This document shows, piece after piece, positions 3,013-7,711 of a stretch of 12,815 nucleotides of DNA. The notes below the pieces were generated by a model. That model had not been told where the DNA came from and made no database searches. It saw only the letters and a list, made by a program, of their open reading frames with translations. Location of the stretch: NCBI GenBank assembly GCA_013695505.1, contig JACDAH010000358.1, positions 1 to 12,815 of the forward strand, read 5' to 3'. This DNA comes from Chloroflexota bacterium. Lineage in GTDB: Bacteria; Chloroflexota; Limnocylindria; Limnocylindrales; CSP1-4. A program made the translations under genes and the position numbers. The number at the start of each line of letters is the position of its first letter. Positions within the stretch are counted from its first letter, which is position 1.

Positions 3013-3043
3013 GTTGACTAAGTTGGACTCATGGGCCTATCGT
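3013..3043 (+). promoter_or_regulatory. Candidate promoter and operator of the Phd-PIN module, leaderless
   Basis: TTGACT (3014-3019) and TATCGT (3038-3043), 18 nt apart, resemble -35 and -10 boxes. The -10 ends 6 nt before the antitoxin ATG at 3050, so transcription would start at or next to the start codon. No Shine-Dalgarno sequence is visible there, consistent with a leaderless mRNA. The -35 overlaps a near-direct repeat, GTTGACT (3013-3019) and GTTGGACT (3022-3029), which could be the antitoxin operator. Confidence 0.4.
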
Positions 3044-3049
3044 GCCGCC

Positions 3050-3283
3050 ATGGTCGACACCGTCAACATCCACGAAGCGAAGACGCACCTGTCCCGCCTC
3101 ATCGACAAGGTCGAGTCGGGCGAGGAGATCGTGATCGCCCGCGCCGGCCGCCCTGTGGCGCGCCTCGTGGCCTACCGCAAGACGACCCGCCCTCGGGTTC
3201 CTGGCCGCTGGCGTGACCAGATCGTGGTAGCGCAGGACTTCGATGCCCCGAACGAAGAGCTCATCCGGGACTTCGAAGGGTGA
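3050..3283 (+). CDS. Type II antitoxin, Phd/YefM family
   Basis: The protein has 77 residues. The sequence VNIHEAKTHLSRLIDKVESG, then EEIVIARAGRPVARLV, is the classic Phd/YefM DNA-binding N-terminal domain (residues 4-41). The C-terminal tail, with RWRDQIVVAQDFDAPNEELI, resembles the toxin-wrapping tails of PhdYeFM antitoxins paired with PIN toxins, where the motif before the acidic end is usually DFDAPLPE-like. It should bind its own promoter and neutralise the downstream PIN toxin. The start is the ATG at 3050; a longer upstream frame has no antitoxin-like sequence and runs back into the beta-helix gene. Its stop codon overlaps the toxin start by four bases (GTGA), which couples their translation. 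The module looks intact. Confidence 0.9.
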   Translation: MVDTVNIHEAKTHLSRLIDKVESGEEIVIARAGRPVARLVAYRKTTRPRVPGRWRDQIVVAQDFDAPNEELIRDFEG

Positions 3284-3657
3284 TCCTCCTGCTCGACGCA
3301 CACACCCTTCTGTGGTGGCTGCGCGGCGAGCCATCCCTCGACCGTGCGGCGCGAGCGTCCATTGCGGATCCCGCCAACGACGTCGTCGTCTCTGCCGCGA
3401 CGATCTGGGAGCTCGAGATCAAACGCGCGATGGGGAAGCTCCAGGCGCCCGATGATCTCCTGGCCCTGCTCGAGAGCGAGGACTTCGACTGCATCCCGAT
3501 CCACGGCGACGATGCCATCCGGGCCGCCCGGCTTCCGATGCACCACCGCGACCCGTTCGACCGGATGGTCCTGGCTCACGCCCTTCGGCTGGACGCGGTC
3601 GTCGTGTCGCGCGACCAGATGTTCGACGCCTATGGAGTGCCCGTCCTCCGGGCCTGA
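3280..3657 (+). CDS. PIN-domain toxin (VapC-like ribonuclease)
   Basis: The protein has 125 residues, the usual length for a single PIN domain. It starts with GTG at 3280, inside the antitoxin stop. Acidic active-site residues are visible: D6 in LLLDAHTLLWWL, E44 in AATIWELEIKRA, D91 and D94 in HHRDPFDRMVLAHAL, and D112 in SRDQMFDAYG. The HHRDPFDR block is characteristic of the PIN subgroup paired with Phd-type antitoxins. Such toxins cut RNA with Mg2+ in the cytoplasm, often tRNA or rRNA, stopping growth when the antitoxin is lost. The actual target cannot be told from sequence. All catalytic positions are kept, so activity is expected. Confidence 0.9.
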   Translation: MILLLDAHTLLWWLRGEPSLDRAARASIADPANDVVVSAATIWELEIKRAMGKLQAPDDLLALLESEDFDCIPIHGDDAIRAARLPMHHRDPFDRMVLAHALRLDAVVVSRDQMFDAYGVPVLRA

Positions 3658-3714: not shown

Positions 3715-3963
3715 ATGCTGACCGTACCCGAAGCCGCTCGCCGTGTCGGCCGCAATCCGGAGACCGTGCGCCGGTGGATCCGTGAGGGAAAGCTCGTCGC
3801 GCGGAAGGTCGGCACCCAGCACGTCATCGAGGCGGCCGATCTCGACGCGCTCGATCCCGCCGAGTGGCGTTCCGAACTGCCGGCCGCCTGGCGCCGAACC
3901 GTCACCGGCGAACCGATGCCCGACGTGGTCGACGCGGTCCGACGAACCCGCGCGGGGCATTGA
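3715..3963 (+). CDS. Excisionase/MerR-type HTH antitoxin-like protein
   Basis: The protein has 82 residues and a near-ideal AAGGAG site at 3702-3707, 7 nt before the ATG. Residues 1-40 (MLTVPEAARRVGRNPETVRR, then WIREGKLVARKVG) form the HTH_17/excisionase-type winged helix, with the WIREGKL turn that these DNA-binding domains share. The acidic and hydrophobic C-terminal part (DLDALDPAEWRSELPAAW) would be the partner-binding tail. Genes of this type often stand directly before a PIN toxin as the antitoxin, and a PIN fragment begins 7 nt downstream here. It should act as repressor of its own promoter, probably through the inverted repeat at 3683-3699. With its toxin truncated it is probably an orphan antitoxin; an excisionase role is less likely because no integrase is nearby. 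Confidence 0.8.
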   Translation: MLTVPEAARRVGRNPETVRRWIREGKLVARKVGTQHVIEAADLDALDPAEWRSELPAAWRRTVTGEPMPDVVDAVRRTRAGH

Positions 3964-3970
3964 TCGGTCC

Positions 3971-4123
3971 ATGCGCCTCGTCGTCGACGCCAGTGTGTGC
4001 CTCGACGTCTGCCTGGCGGAGGCGGGCTGGGACCTCCTTGCCGGACACGAGCTCAGCGCGCCGCCGCTGCTCAGATCAGAGCTGTCCTCTGCCCGGAGGC
4101 GACGACTGCTTCCGATAAGGTGA
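3971..4123 (+). pseudogene. Truncated PIN-domain toxin (N-terminal fragment)
   Basis: The reading frame gives 50 residues, beginning MRLVVDASVCLDVCLAEAGW and continuing to LLAGHELSAPPLLRSELSSA. This matches the first third of VapC-type PIN domains: catalytic D6 in VVDAS and E37 in the APPLLRSEL helix. The frame then runs into RRRRLLPIR and a stop. The remaining ~80-90 residues, with the two further catalytic aspartates, are absent. It follows the HTH antitoxin by 7 nt, the normal arrangement for a TA operon, so it is the remains of that toxin. The break near 4090-4123 lies next to the end of the PHP ATPase gene on the other strand, which suggests that the island's edge cut this gene. It is not expected to be a working nuclease. 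Confidence 0.8.
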
Positions 4124-4135
4124 GTTATGTCTGTG

Positions 4136-6715
4136 TCAAGGAATATCGACGGAGGCCTCGAAGCGCGCGACGGCCGCTCGCACGAGAGCCGATGGATGAT
4201 CCCGCAGTCCGAGTCCAGCGTCCCTCACGTTCGCGTCGATTTGAATCCGGCCATCGCTCGCATCCTTCAGGCCGTCCAGCGCGGCCGTGACGACATAGTC
4301 GCCGGGCTCGGCCAGTAGTTCGAGGACTCGCTTGGCGACGACCCTCTGCTTAGCCGTGTCGACGGTTGGCGCGAGAAGCGGCAGGATGCGCGCCGCCCAA
4401 GCGCGAACGTACGCGTCAACATCCTGCGCCTGCGCCAGACCGACGGCGACTAGTACGTAGGGATCGATGAGCGTGCGGAGTGCGGGCAGTGAGCGCGTTG
4501 CCTGTATCCGCGCTTCCCGTGACGTTCCCCCCACGAGCGCGAAGAGTTGGCCAAGAGCAGATTCGGCGTCAATGTATTGAAACGCGGCGCGATAGCGAAG
4601 GGCCGCCCCGCGCAGCTGAAGAGAGCCGGCTGCCAGCGGGATATCCGGATGAGCCTGATCCACCTCCCTCGGCAGCCACCGACTCAGTCCGGGCATGACG
4701 TCAGCTCTGCGGCTCACCAGGTGTTCGAGTACCGCGGCACGCTCGTCGTTTGGCGATCGCCTGTCCTGCAGATATTGCGCGAGGATCTTCCAGGCACGTG
4801 TTTCGACGTCTGGCGATGCGTACGGCTCACCCTCAAGCAGGAGGCGTGTTAACAGCAGGGCAATGCGGATGCCGCCGCCCAGGGTGTATCGGCCTGACGC
4901 GGCATCCGCCATTTCCCGACGCAGGGCGTCAACGCATTGGCCAATCGCGCGGGATCGACCCTCCAGCGCGATGGCGCTCAGCGTTTCCCAAGCCGGATCG
5001 TCGACCGTGCCCGCGTACCTCGCCTTTAGCGCCCGCCACTGGACGTCCGCCGTCGCGATCTGCCGCGCGACCTCGGCCGCGATCTCGCCTATGGCGAGTG
5101 TCCGGCGCTCTGCCTTCGCAATGTCTTCCGACAGCCGCTGCACAGCCATCGATGCCTCCGCGTGAGCCTTGACCTTGTCCGCCGACGCGTTGACCGGGAT
5201 AGCCGCAATCTCCTTCTCTAGTCCCTCGCGGGATCGCTTTGTCTCGCCGGCCAAGATTCGGACCGCGGGAAGCGACCGTTGAACCGCCTGCTCGGCCGCA
5301 ATCGTTCGCGTCAGAGCAGCGATATTTGATCGCTCGAACTCGCGCTGGGCCGCCGCACCCTCCAGATGGAGTTCGCGGAGCTCGGCGAACGTCGTAGCTT
5401 GCATTCGGTCTTCGTCGCCGATCGCGCCGAAAACCACGCGCTCGATCTCATCGACCAACGGCTCCGTGAGCCCCGCCGGCGCCGAAAGGCGTTCCACGAA
5501 TTGTTGCGACAGGTATTGCACGCGCGGATGCGGATCGATTTCAGTCGCGAGCATGCCGGACTGCGTCGCTCCGTCGGCCCATTTGACCTGTGCTTCGATG
5601 CCGCCCAGGAGCGACCACGCTTTGGCGACGAACGACGCTGGGCCCGGCTGCTCTTCGCCTGCGCCGGTCGCGAGGGCGATGAGATCTGCGAGCGCCGTCT
5701 TGCCGGACCCTTTTGCCCCAATAACGGTCACGAGGCCCTCGTTCAAGGCAATTCTCGACGTCTTCAGCCAGGAGGCATTGCGAACGGTGAGTTCGGCCAC
5801 CGTTTCGTCCGACTGGGCGCCACGCGGTGGCTCGTCCCCGATGTAGACGCGTCGCTCCGGCTCGACGAGCGTCTGACGTAGCGCATCGAACGATGGCTCG
5901 CCGCGGATCCAGCATCTTCGGTCGAGCGGAGGCGCCAGAACACGGGCGATCTCGTGCGCGTCGCATCCGTGCAGACAGGGTTTCGGCGACTGAGCGTCCG
6001 CGACGAAGCCCGGATGAGCGCCAAGCCAGTAGCTTCGGTCGCCTTCCTGACTCGAAAAGACGATGTTCGCGAAGCGGCCTAGCTCTTCTCGCTGAGCCTT
6101 GAAGCTCGCGTCCTTCGACAGGCCGGCTAGCCCATCTTTTCCAGCGGCGACAGCGACGAGAATGTTCGATCGGATCCATTCGTCGGACTTCAACATCGCG
6201 TCGATCGCGCTGAGCTCCACCTTGAACTGGTTCGCGCCGACGCTGAGCGCCGACAGCTCTGCGAGCTTCGCGTCGTTGGCATGGGCGCGCCCGAGACGAA
6301 CGAGGCCGTCGTCGGTGCACGGATAGGGCGACCCACGAAAGGTGAATGTCAGGCGGCCAAGAGCTTCTTCGGCCCTTGCAACGTGCGCGGAGTCGTCGGG
6401 CGAGATGAGGAGGTGAACGTTGACGCCGCCGCCATCCCTTGTCTGCAGAGTGAGCCGGAGTTCGACGTTCGGGAATACCAACTGCACCCAGGGAAAGGCG
6501 CTGGTCGGCCGCTGGCGAACGAACTCCTTGTACCCGCGCAAAGTGAAGTAATCCGTGATCCCCAGGGCGGCGACTTTAGGAGTTGCCGCTTCGATCGCGC
6601 CGAAGTATCCAGACCAATCACCACTGAACTGGTCGTTTAACAGCGTGCCAGGCGCGTGCATATGGGGATCCCAACGAAGCCATCGCGATCCCGCACTCCA
6701 CGGCCGAGCTACCAA
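4136..6715 (-). CDS. TrlF-like PHP domain protein with half ABC ATPase and HEAT-like C-terminus
   Basis: The protein has 859 residues and starts at TTG 6715 with GAGGA 7 nt upstream (6723-6727). Residues ~10-300 form a PHP phosphoesterase domain with complete candidate metal ligands: D16/H18/H20 in RWDPHMHAPG, D55 in ALGITDY, E85, H101, H234 in GAHPG, and H249/D252/H254 in HGCDAH. The following WIRGEPSFDALRQTLVEPER resembles the PHP-ATPase linker of TrlF-family proteins. Walker A is GAKGSGKT (333-340), with a Q-loop-like YLSQQFVERL at 401-410. Two coiled-coil stretches cover ~450-505 and ~515-565. After about residue 570 the protein does not return to an ABC signature or Walker B. Instead ~610-859 is a run of amphipathic helices resembling HEAT repeats. 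PHP-ATPases occur in defence islands and probably act on nucleic acid, but this is inference. The missing ATPase half suggests a chimera or a pseudo-ATPase. The frame is intact, so it may be expressed. Confidence 0.75.
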   Translation of the reverse strand: MVARPWSAGSRWLRWDPHMHAPGTLLNDQFSGDWSGYFGAIEAATPKVAALGITDYFTLRGYKEFVRQRPTSAFPWVQLVFPNVELRLTLQTRDGGGVNVHLLISPDDSAHVARAEEALGRLTFTFRGSPYPCTDDGLVRLGRAHANDAKLAELSALSVGANQFKVELSAIDAMLKSDEWIRSNILVAVAAGKDGLAGLSKDASFKAQREELGRFANIVFSSQEGDRSYWLGAHPGFVADAQSPKPCLHGCDAHEIARVLAPPLDRRCWIRGEPSFDALRQTLVEPERRVYIGDEPPRGAQSDETVAELTVRNASWLKTSRIALNEGLVTVIGAKGSGKTALADLIALATGAGEEQPGPASFVAKAWSLLGGIEAQVKWADGATQSGMLATEIDPHPRVQYLSQQFVERLSAPAGLTEPLVDEIERVVFGAIGDEDRMQATTFAELRELHLEGAAAQREFERSNIAALTRTIAAEQAVQRSLPAVRILAGETKRSREGLEKEIAAIPVNASADKVKAHAEASMAVQRLSEDIAKAERRTLAIGEIAAEVARQIATADVQWRALKARYAGTVDDPAWETLSAIALEGRSRAIGQCVDALRREMADAASGRYTLGGGIRIALLLTRLLLEGEPYASPDVETRAWKILAQYLQDRRSPNDERAAVLEHLVSRRADVMPGLSRWLPREVDQAHPDIPLAAGSLQLRGAALRYRAAFQYIDAESALGQLFALVGGTSREARIQATRSLPALRTLIDPYVLVAVGLAQAQDVDAYVRAWAARILPLLAPTVDTAKQRVVAKRVLELLAEPGDYVVTAALDGLKDASDGRIQIDANVRDAGLGLRDHPSALVRAAVARFEASVDIP

Positions 6716-6802: not shown

Positions 6803-7366
6803 TCATTGTGTTCGTCGGGGCTCGTCATTCGCATAGTCCGCGGATGACTCGGCCGCTCGTGCATTGACCTCGTGTCGTCGCTCAACCCGGCTCAGGAAGA
6901 AGTCCCGTGTCGGGGCGTCCATGAAGTAGACGTAGCAGCCGCGGAGGCCGCAGGTCAGCAGGACGCGGTAGGTGCTCTTCACGAAGTCGGTGAACTCTTG
7001 CTCGGTGACGCCGCTGCGGACGACGCGGTCGTGCGACTGGTCGCGCTGGCCCTTCCAGCCGCCCTCCATCGGCCGGTAGACGAGGTCTGGGCCGACGATC
7101 ACGCCGACGTAGTCGAACTCGAAGCCCTGCGCGGTGTAGACGCAGCCGACCTGGTCGATGCCCTCATTCGCGCTCGCCCAGAAGTCGGATTTCGGGATGC
7201 CCGGGCCCAGCCGCTTCGCGTCGGACTTGGCGTTCCACGAGGTCACCTCGGACGGCGCCGGGCGGTACCGGAACTCGGCGAAGAAGCGGTCGGCGAGCTG
7301 GTTCGCGATGCGCGCCTGTGTGGCGTCCGCGATGAACTGCTCACTCGTGCCCTGATAGAGGTGCAA
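6803..7366 (-). pseudogene. DUF2075 helicase-like gene with large internal in-frame deletion
   Basis: The frame encodes 187 residues from a TTG at 7366 with a GGGGGAGGGG site just upstream. Residues 1-44 (MHLYQGTSEQFIADATQARI, then FRYRPAPSEVTSW) match the extreme N-terminus of DUF2075-containing DNA/RNA helicase proteins. Residues ~45-160 match their extreme C-terminus: NAKSDAKRLGPGIPKS, GIDQVGCVYTAQGFEFDYVG, then STYRVLLTCGLRGCYVYF and a RDFF end. Such proteins are normally about 600-700 residues, so roughly 400-450 are missing in the middle, including the nuclease-like region and Walker A/B. The join is at TGGAAC (7237-7232). Motif VI usually reads LLTRG; here it is LLTCG, removing the arginine finger. 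It should have no ATPase activity. It lies 87 nt upstream of, and in frame with, the PHP ATPase gene, and diverges from the NERD fragment. Confidence 0.75.
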
Positions 7367-7480: not shown

Positions 7481-7711
7481 ATGCAGATCAAGGTCGCCGA
7501 CGGCCGCCAGGCCGACATCGTCGCTCTCGAACGGATCCTCGAGCGCCCGGACCTGCCCGCGGCGACGCGGAAGCGGATCGACGACGTGCTCGTCGTGGAG
7601 GTGGTCGGGTCGCTGATGGGGGCGCACGGTGATGTTGTGGTTCACCCGAAACATGACACGCCCCGCGACGTCAGTCGGCGAACAGCGACGGGATCGCCGA
7701 CCAGGTCGTGA
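7481..7711 (+). pseudogene. N-terminal fragment of a NERD-domain (nuclease-related) gene
   Basis: The frame gives 76 residues from ATG 7481 with GGGGGA just upstream. Residues 1-35 (MQIKVADGRQADIVALERIL, then ERPDLPAATRKRIDD) match the start of NERD-domain proteins, which normally continue into a GERDAAYEIEF-like segment and the nuclease-related core. Here the similarity stops at about base 7585 and the rest (VLVVEVVGSLMGAHG and on) is not recognisable; it overlaps the 3' end of the dehalogenase gene on the other strand. The gene is therefore cut after its first ~105 bases. NERD and DUF2075 proteins are both common in defence-type regions. The original product would have been several hundred residues long. 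No function is expected from the fragment. Confidence 0.6.
7618..7664. other. Nested imperfect inverted repeats at the end of the NERD fragment
   Basis: GGGGCG (7619-7624) and CGCCCC (7659-7664) enclose GGTGA (7628-7632) and TCACC (7642-7646). The element lies just past the dehalogenase stop, so on the minus strand it could act as a terminator, though no T-tract follows. It could also mark the breakpoint that truncated the NERD gene. Confidence 0.3.

Follow-up and report, generated by a model that had tools for sequence, protein, structure and literature searches.

PHP-ATPases of the TrlF type and the anti-phage PHP-ATPase Ppl are the closest described systems to the gene reported here. In TrlF, two ABC halves are linked by a coiled coil, and an LSPG.RG signature, a Walker B (DQPEENLD) and an H-loop (HNAN) are present in nine of the nine TrlF relatives that we aligned. 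In the related Ppl, according to a review (PMC12904381), the PHP and NTPase domains bind NTPs with an inhibitory effect. The stretch of DNA analyzed here, which we call the window, has 12,815 nucleotides and is the entire contig C341 (12.8 kb) of a Chloroflexota bin, G000, that comprises 549 contigs and is 60.8% complete. It contains a chimeric open frame (4136..6715, minus strand) of 859 aa that starts as a TrlF and ends as a HEAT solenoid, and that we regard as probably a single fusion event rather than a new functional architecture.

The frame runs through 859 codons without interruption from a TTG start with GAGG 8 nt upstream, in line with the continuous frame and ribosome-binding site noted beforehand. 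Promoter and terminator scans gave signals that did not clearly exceed those in shuffled sequence. In the bin, the sole match to the chimeric protein is the window frame itself. GC3 is alike on either side of the join and lies at 0.69-0.76 along the fusion, compared with 0.80-0.90 in eight other measured genes or fragments, and this lower GC3 suggests that both parents of the fusion may have been imported.

The TrlF-derived 5' part (4985..6715, minus strand; residues 1 to ~577) comprises, according to a profile match and alignments, a PHP domain, an ABC N-lobe with Walker A (GAKGSGKT) and the first coiled-coil arm. Residues 9-555 match positions 2-548 of the 944 in the NCBIfam model of the TrlF family AAA-like ATPase, NF045780 (2.9e-81); the score of the whole protein, 274.5 bits, is under the curated cut-off of 350. 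The nearest TrlF, a 963-aa protein from the same family (G418, L031:1984-4875), covers positions 2-944 of this model and is 46-47% identical to the window protein (47% over residues 1-576). When aligned with nine full-length TrlF relatives, the window protein keeps H18, H20, D55, E85, H101, H249, D252 and H254, which we take to be the PHP metal ligands, and its Walker A lines up with GARGSGKT or GPRGSGKT. For the signature, Walker B and H-loop, the window row of the alignment shows nothing equivalent. Both the TrlF-type identity of the N-terminal part, with PHP residues and Walker A intact, and the loss of the second ATPase half, as put forward in the original prediction, are thus upheld.

The rest of the protein (4136..4972, minus strand; residues ~582-859) is a HEAT solenoid tail that matches the last ~270 aa of separate solenoids of ~780 aa, as indicated by relatives, a profile and a structural model. 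By phmmer, a 773-aa solenoid from G440 matches window residues 593-855 only (3.6e-19) and a 790-aa solenoid from G327 matches residues 599-853 only (1.8e-18), each at an identity within 30-32%. The same three lines of evidence support tandem helical hairpins of the HEAT type, and with them the ~250-residue HEAT-like region first noticed in the sequence; a direct Pfam scan of the C-part piece gave no match. In the predicted model the solenoid is confident over residues 701-859, and the PHP/ABC part is poor, mostly under pLDDT 60. Taken together, the TrlF-type N-part, the missing C-lobe motifs and the HEAT-type C-part confirm what had been observed in the sequence as a whole.

Given that half an ATPase is missing, residues 570-859 might hide a complete but diverged one. 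We found no point in favor of this idea. When the two sequences were compared by blastp, residues 591-859 resembled the C-terminal half of TrlF no more than chance would give (best E 0.19). The signature, Walker B and H motifs that we tested are all absent from this part, and the model is helical with HEAT matches. A complete ATPase with Walker B in residues 570-859, the outcome that the original prediction had itself set against its claim, was found neither by motif, nor by blastp, nor in the model. We therefore reject a concealed C-lobe and give this explanation practically no chance.

TrlF homology fades and solenoid homology starts within a join zone at 4919..4990 (minus strand; residues ~576-599), as delimited by pairwise comparisons with several methods. 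Similarity to the G418 TrlF stops at residue 576 by alignment, at 589 by phmmer and at 616 by blastp without composition correction, the loosest of the three. Similarity to the solenoids starts at residues 593 (G440) and 599 (G327) by phmmer, and at 590 and 580, respectively, by blastp. In a structure alignment of the window protein, TrlF and the solenoids, the first ~500 aa of the solenoid rows are forced against the TrlF part. In TrlF the join site corresponds to the coiled coil that links the two ABC halves, and in the solenoid it lies about two thirds along the protein. Judged from these comparisons, the join is within domains of both parents, with no domain edge at this place.

The parent genes of the tail proved to have a consistent organization. 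Immediately before the solenoid gene, both genomes have a small gene (202 aa in G440, 178 aa in G327), and the two small proteins are 36% identical. These pairs are located at L032:3668-6600 (minus strand; solenoid at L032:3668-5989) and at L011:4950-7855 (plus strand; solenoid at L011:5483-7855). The small protein of L032 matches nothing in Pfam or PADLOC, and a weak model of the small partner (pLDDT 66, from 2 rows) has flavodoxin-like top Foldseek matches at a TM of about 0.4. With the small-protein profile, one of 400 phylum genomes was matched, namely G327; G440, by its handle, was outside this draw. The same profile has no match in G000, the window included, with 7 of 8 candidates scored in a bin that is 61% complete. 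The G327 pair adjoins a Cas1-domain gene (Pfam Cas_Cas1, 6.9e-38) and, judged by eye alone, a long frame that has stretches like a DNA polymerase, with CRISPR-like repeats close to its end; these features lie at L011:8006-9655 and 11983-15461. A small protein and a HEAT solenoid paired in two genomes of one Chloroflexota family are perhaps an undescribed system, possibly of defense. This by-product of our search, a small alpha/beta protein with a HEAT solenoid that is both rare and conserved, may merit attention more than the fusion does.

We looked widely for other genomes with the same full-length architecture, as had been proposed, and found a second carrier in none of the phylum, family or order genomes, genome contigs or viral contigs searched. 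The 400 phylum genomes were searched with the whole protein and with the C-part, 2 and 6 candidates per genome being scored; the 107 family genomes with 8 candidates per genome; and the 126 order genomes, which include the family set, with a C-part profile and at most 19 candidates scored in each. No carrier appeared in a collection of genome contigs or among viral contigs, where 0 of 13 loci in one scan matched beyond query residue 580; pattern scans of both collections recovered no relative whatever, plain TrlF genes included. The 30-base join pattern had 0 matches in viral contigs. C-part and solenoid scans of the viral contigs found nothing, the C-part had no relative in plasmid and phage collections at E 0.01, and the 773-aa solenoid had none in the plasmid collection. 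Three candidate relatives of the C-part were rejected: G295 has stops inside and lies antisense to a 1553-aa frame (glutamate synthase by eye), G073 has one stop inside its 92 residues, and G439 is weak (3.1e-4, 95 residues) and was left out of the counts. Weak N-part matches in other P-loop or PHP genes, from G240, G337, G308, G325 and G252 in the phylum search and from G404, G426, G428 and G460 in the family search, were not used for the join.

Since matches to the TrlF model at E <= 0.001 were near-universal, occurring in 175 of 177 class genomes and in 14 of 14 controls (none of the controls over the cut-off), we used only long matches. Among the matches listed for the 177 class genomes, ten long ones begin at or before profile position 8; nine of them reach positions 932-944, and that of the window ends at 548. 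At least seven of the 177 genomes are over the TrlF cut-off, and two of the nine full-length relatives (G429 and G513) are under it. A genome of the same genus, G384, has a 628-aa frame (G384:C108:18345-20165, minus strand) with a strong match to NF045780 positions 291-944, that is, the ATPase without the PHP part. Within the family, the TrlF carriers seen (G394, G403, G404, G418, G426, G429 and G447) and the solenoid carriers (G327 and G440) do not overlap, and a TrlF gene beside the solenoid pair was seen in no genome examined. The C-part is a portion of a separate ~780-aa gene in both of the only two clear solenoid relatives found, on which the solenoid side of the join argument rests. According to the original prediction, a C-terminal part that is always a separate gene in homologues and a join unique to one genome would mark a decay product; within our searches this is what was found.

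The neighborhood of the frame is also disrupted. At lower window coordinates, the start of a VapC/PIN toxin gene (3971..4123, plus strand) forms a 50-aa frame that is homologous to three relatives of 131-145 aa only as far as their residues 40-41 (window ~4090); the remainder of the PIN domain has no convincing match in the window, and the 50-aa piece has no Pfam match. On the other side, a 187-aa fragment (6803..7366, minus strand) corresponds to the C terminus of a Schlafen group 3/DUF2075 helicase (model positions 249-354 of 354), and its annotated Streptomyces relative is a gene of ~628 aa whose end matches the fragment. A third piece, the 37-codon start of a NERD-protein-like gene (7481..7591, plus strand), matches residues 1-37 only of a 310-aa relative from the same genus (59%). 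This relative scores with Pfam NERD; the 63-aa NERD-like piece of the window has no Pfam match, and the rest of the relative has no convincing match in the window. A 62-aa frame in another genome (G459:C48:4740-4865) matches NERD-like residues 20-63 across the supposed break, which runs against truncation there. A pair of a Phd/YefM antitoxin and a PIN toxin that looks complete (window ~3040-3657, plus strand) adjoins an HTH gene and the broken PIN gene at 3715-4123, and a HAD gene flanks the region. One fusion and three gene fragments thus lie within 3.6 kb.

How should such a frame be explained? A metagenome assembler may have joined reads of two genes, so that the join exists in no cell. 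This is conceivable for a window that is a whole contig of a fragmented, incomplete bin, the more so as a second copy of the join was not found in the genomes searched, the 30-base pattern is missing from the viral contigs, and relatives of the two parents are adjacent in no genome seen. However, the several truncated genes within 3.6 kb would require several chimeric joins, a join in frame has a one-in-three chance, and GC3 is similar across it. That there are several fragments speaks more for genuine decay than for one assembly error, and we consider an assembly artifact unlikely. About as unlikely, in our estimate, is a functional new architecture, expressed and under selection, in which half an ATPase would let a PHP enzyme sense nucleotides and a HEAT solenoid would serve it for recognition. 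The open frame, the GAGG before its start, the intact PHP and Walker A residues and the confidently modeled solenoid would fit this explanation, and the inhibition of Ppl by bound NTPs, as related in the review (PMC12904381), makes NTP sensing a plausible role. In contrast, the architecture occurs in one genome only, its join is inside domains, and its first coiled-coil arm is left unpaired; the solenoid has lost its initial ~500 aa and stands without the partner gene, the neighboring genes are truncated, and the PHP/ABC part is poorly modeled. The expressed architecture with a nucleotide-binding sensor, which the original prediction had offered as one of two options, is therefore unsupported.

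The other option, a fusion made by deletion, is favored here: the parents are separate genes, the join is inside domains and the neighbors are truncated. We consider it probable that the frame arose once, through a deletion that fused two genes in a decaying island. Both parents have relatives within the taxonomic family, where they are separate genes, and the usual partner gene of the solenoid is not adjacent to the window frame. According to this explanation, a TrlF-type PHP-ATPase gene, reduced to its 5' ~60%, would have been joined in frame to the last third of a HEAT-solenoid gene unrelated to it, presumably through a deletion or a non-homologous recombination within a decaying defense-type island; since no TrlF gene was seen beside the solenoid pair, the gene order needed by a simple deletion is unsupported. 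Had the fusion been dead for long, stops or frameshifts should have accumulated in it. The frame open over 859 codons counts against such an age, as do the even GC3, the intact PHP residues and Walker A and the GAGG before the start, so that the fusion may be young or still useful. Having no signature, Walker B or H-loop, its ABC head should be unable to cycle and could at most bind NTP, and the PHP phosphoesterase may still fold. NTP binding through Walker A alone and PHP activity may persist; most likely, the whole protein is non-functional or just a residual PHP enzyme. We think it rather improbable that this is a newborn useful fusion, in which a PHP nuclease domain with an NTP-sensing half ABC head would have acquired a HEAT solenoid as its arm for recognition, the domain shuffling of two defense systems being caught mid-course in a decaying island. 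If the fusion were active, it would be direct evidence for domain shuffling between defense-type systems. As it stands, the locus is an example of an uninterrupted frame that, in a draft metagenome bin, passes for a new protein architecture; it also illustrates that seeking the parent genes of each half can serve as a test in such cases.

The fusion can finally be set beside the systems that it resembles. One partial parallel comes from a viral contig, where a TrlF match (L042:4983-7649) reaches only position 631 of the 944 in the profile before the frame continues into other codons; its tail was compared with NCBIfam alone. A rough motif script run on 26 loci found a Walker-B-like motif in 19, with L042 as a long frame without one, the frames of L009, L027 and L029 being short, cut or possibly wrong and no frame being found for L002, L010 and L030; the gene of L002 is complete on reading. 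As in the window, the TrlF of L042 breaks off inside the ATPase and its frame runs on, but the break point is another one. To Ppl (NF042955/PADLOC PDLC02208) the window protein has a weak match over residues 246-352, the PHP end and Walker A, whereas its score is 29.2 bits against a cut-off of 1000 and it has no C-lobe. With TrlF (NF045780) it shares the PHP domain, Walker A and the first coiled-coil arm, but differs by the lack of the second arm, signature, Walker B and H-loop. Of the two-gene pair, the C-part of the window protein corresponds to the last ~270 aa of the solenoid only; the ~500 aa before these are missing from the window, and so is the small partner gene.
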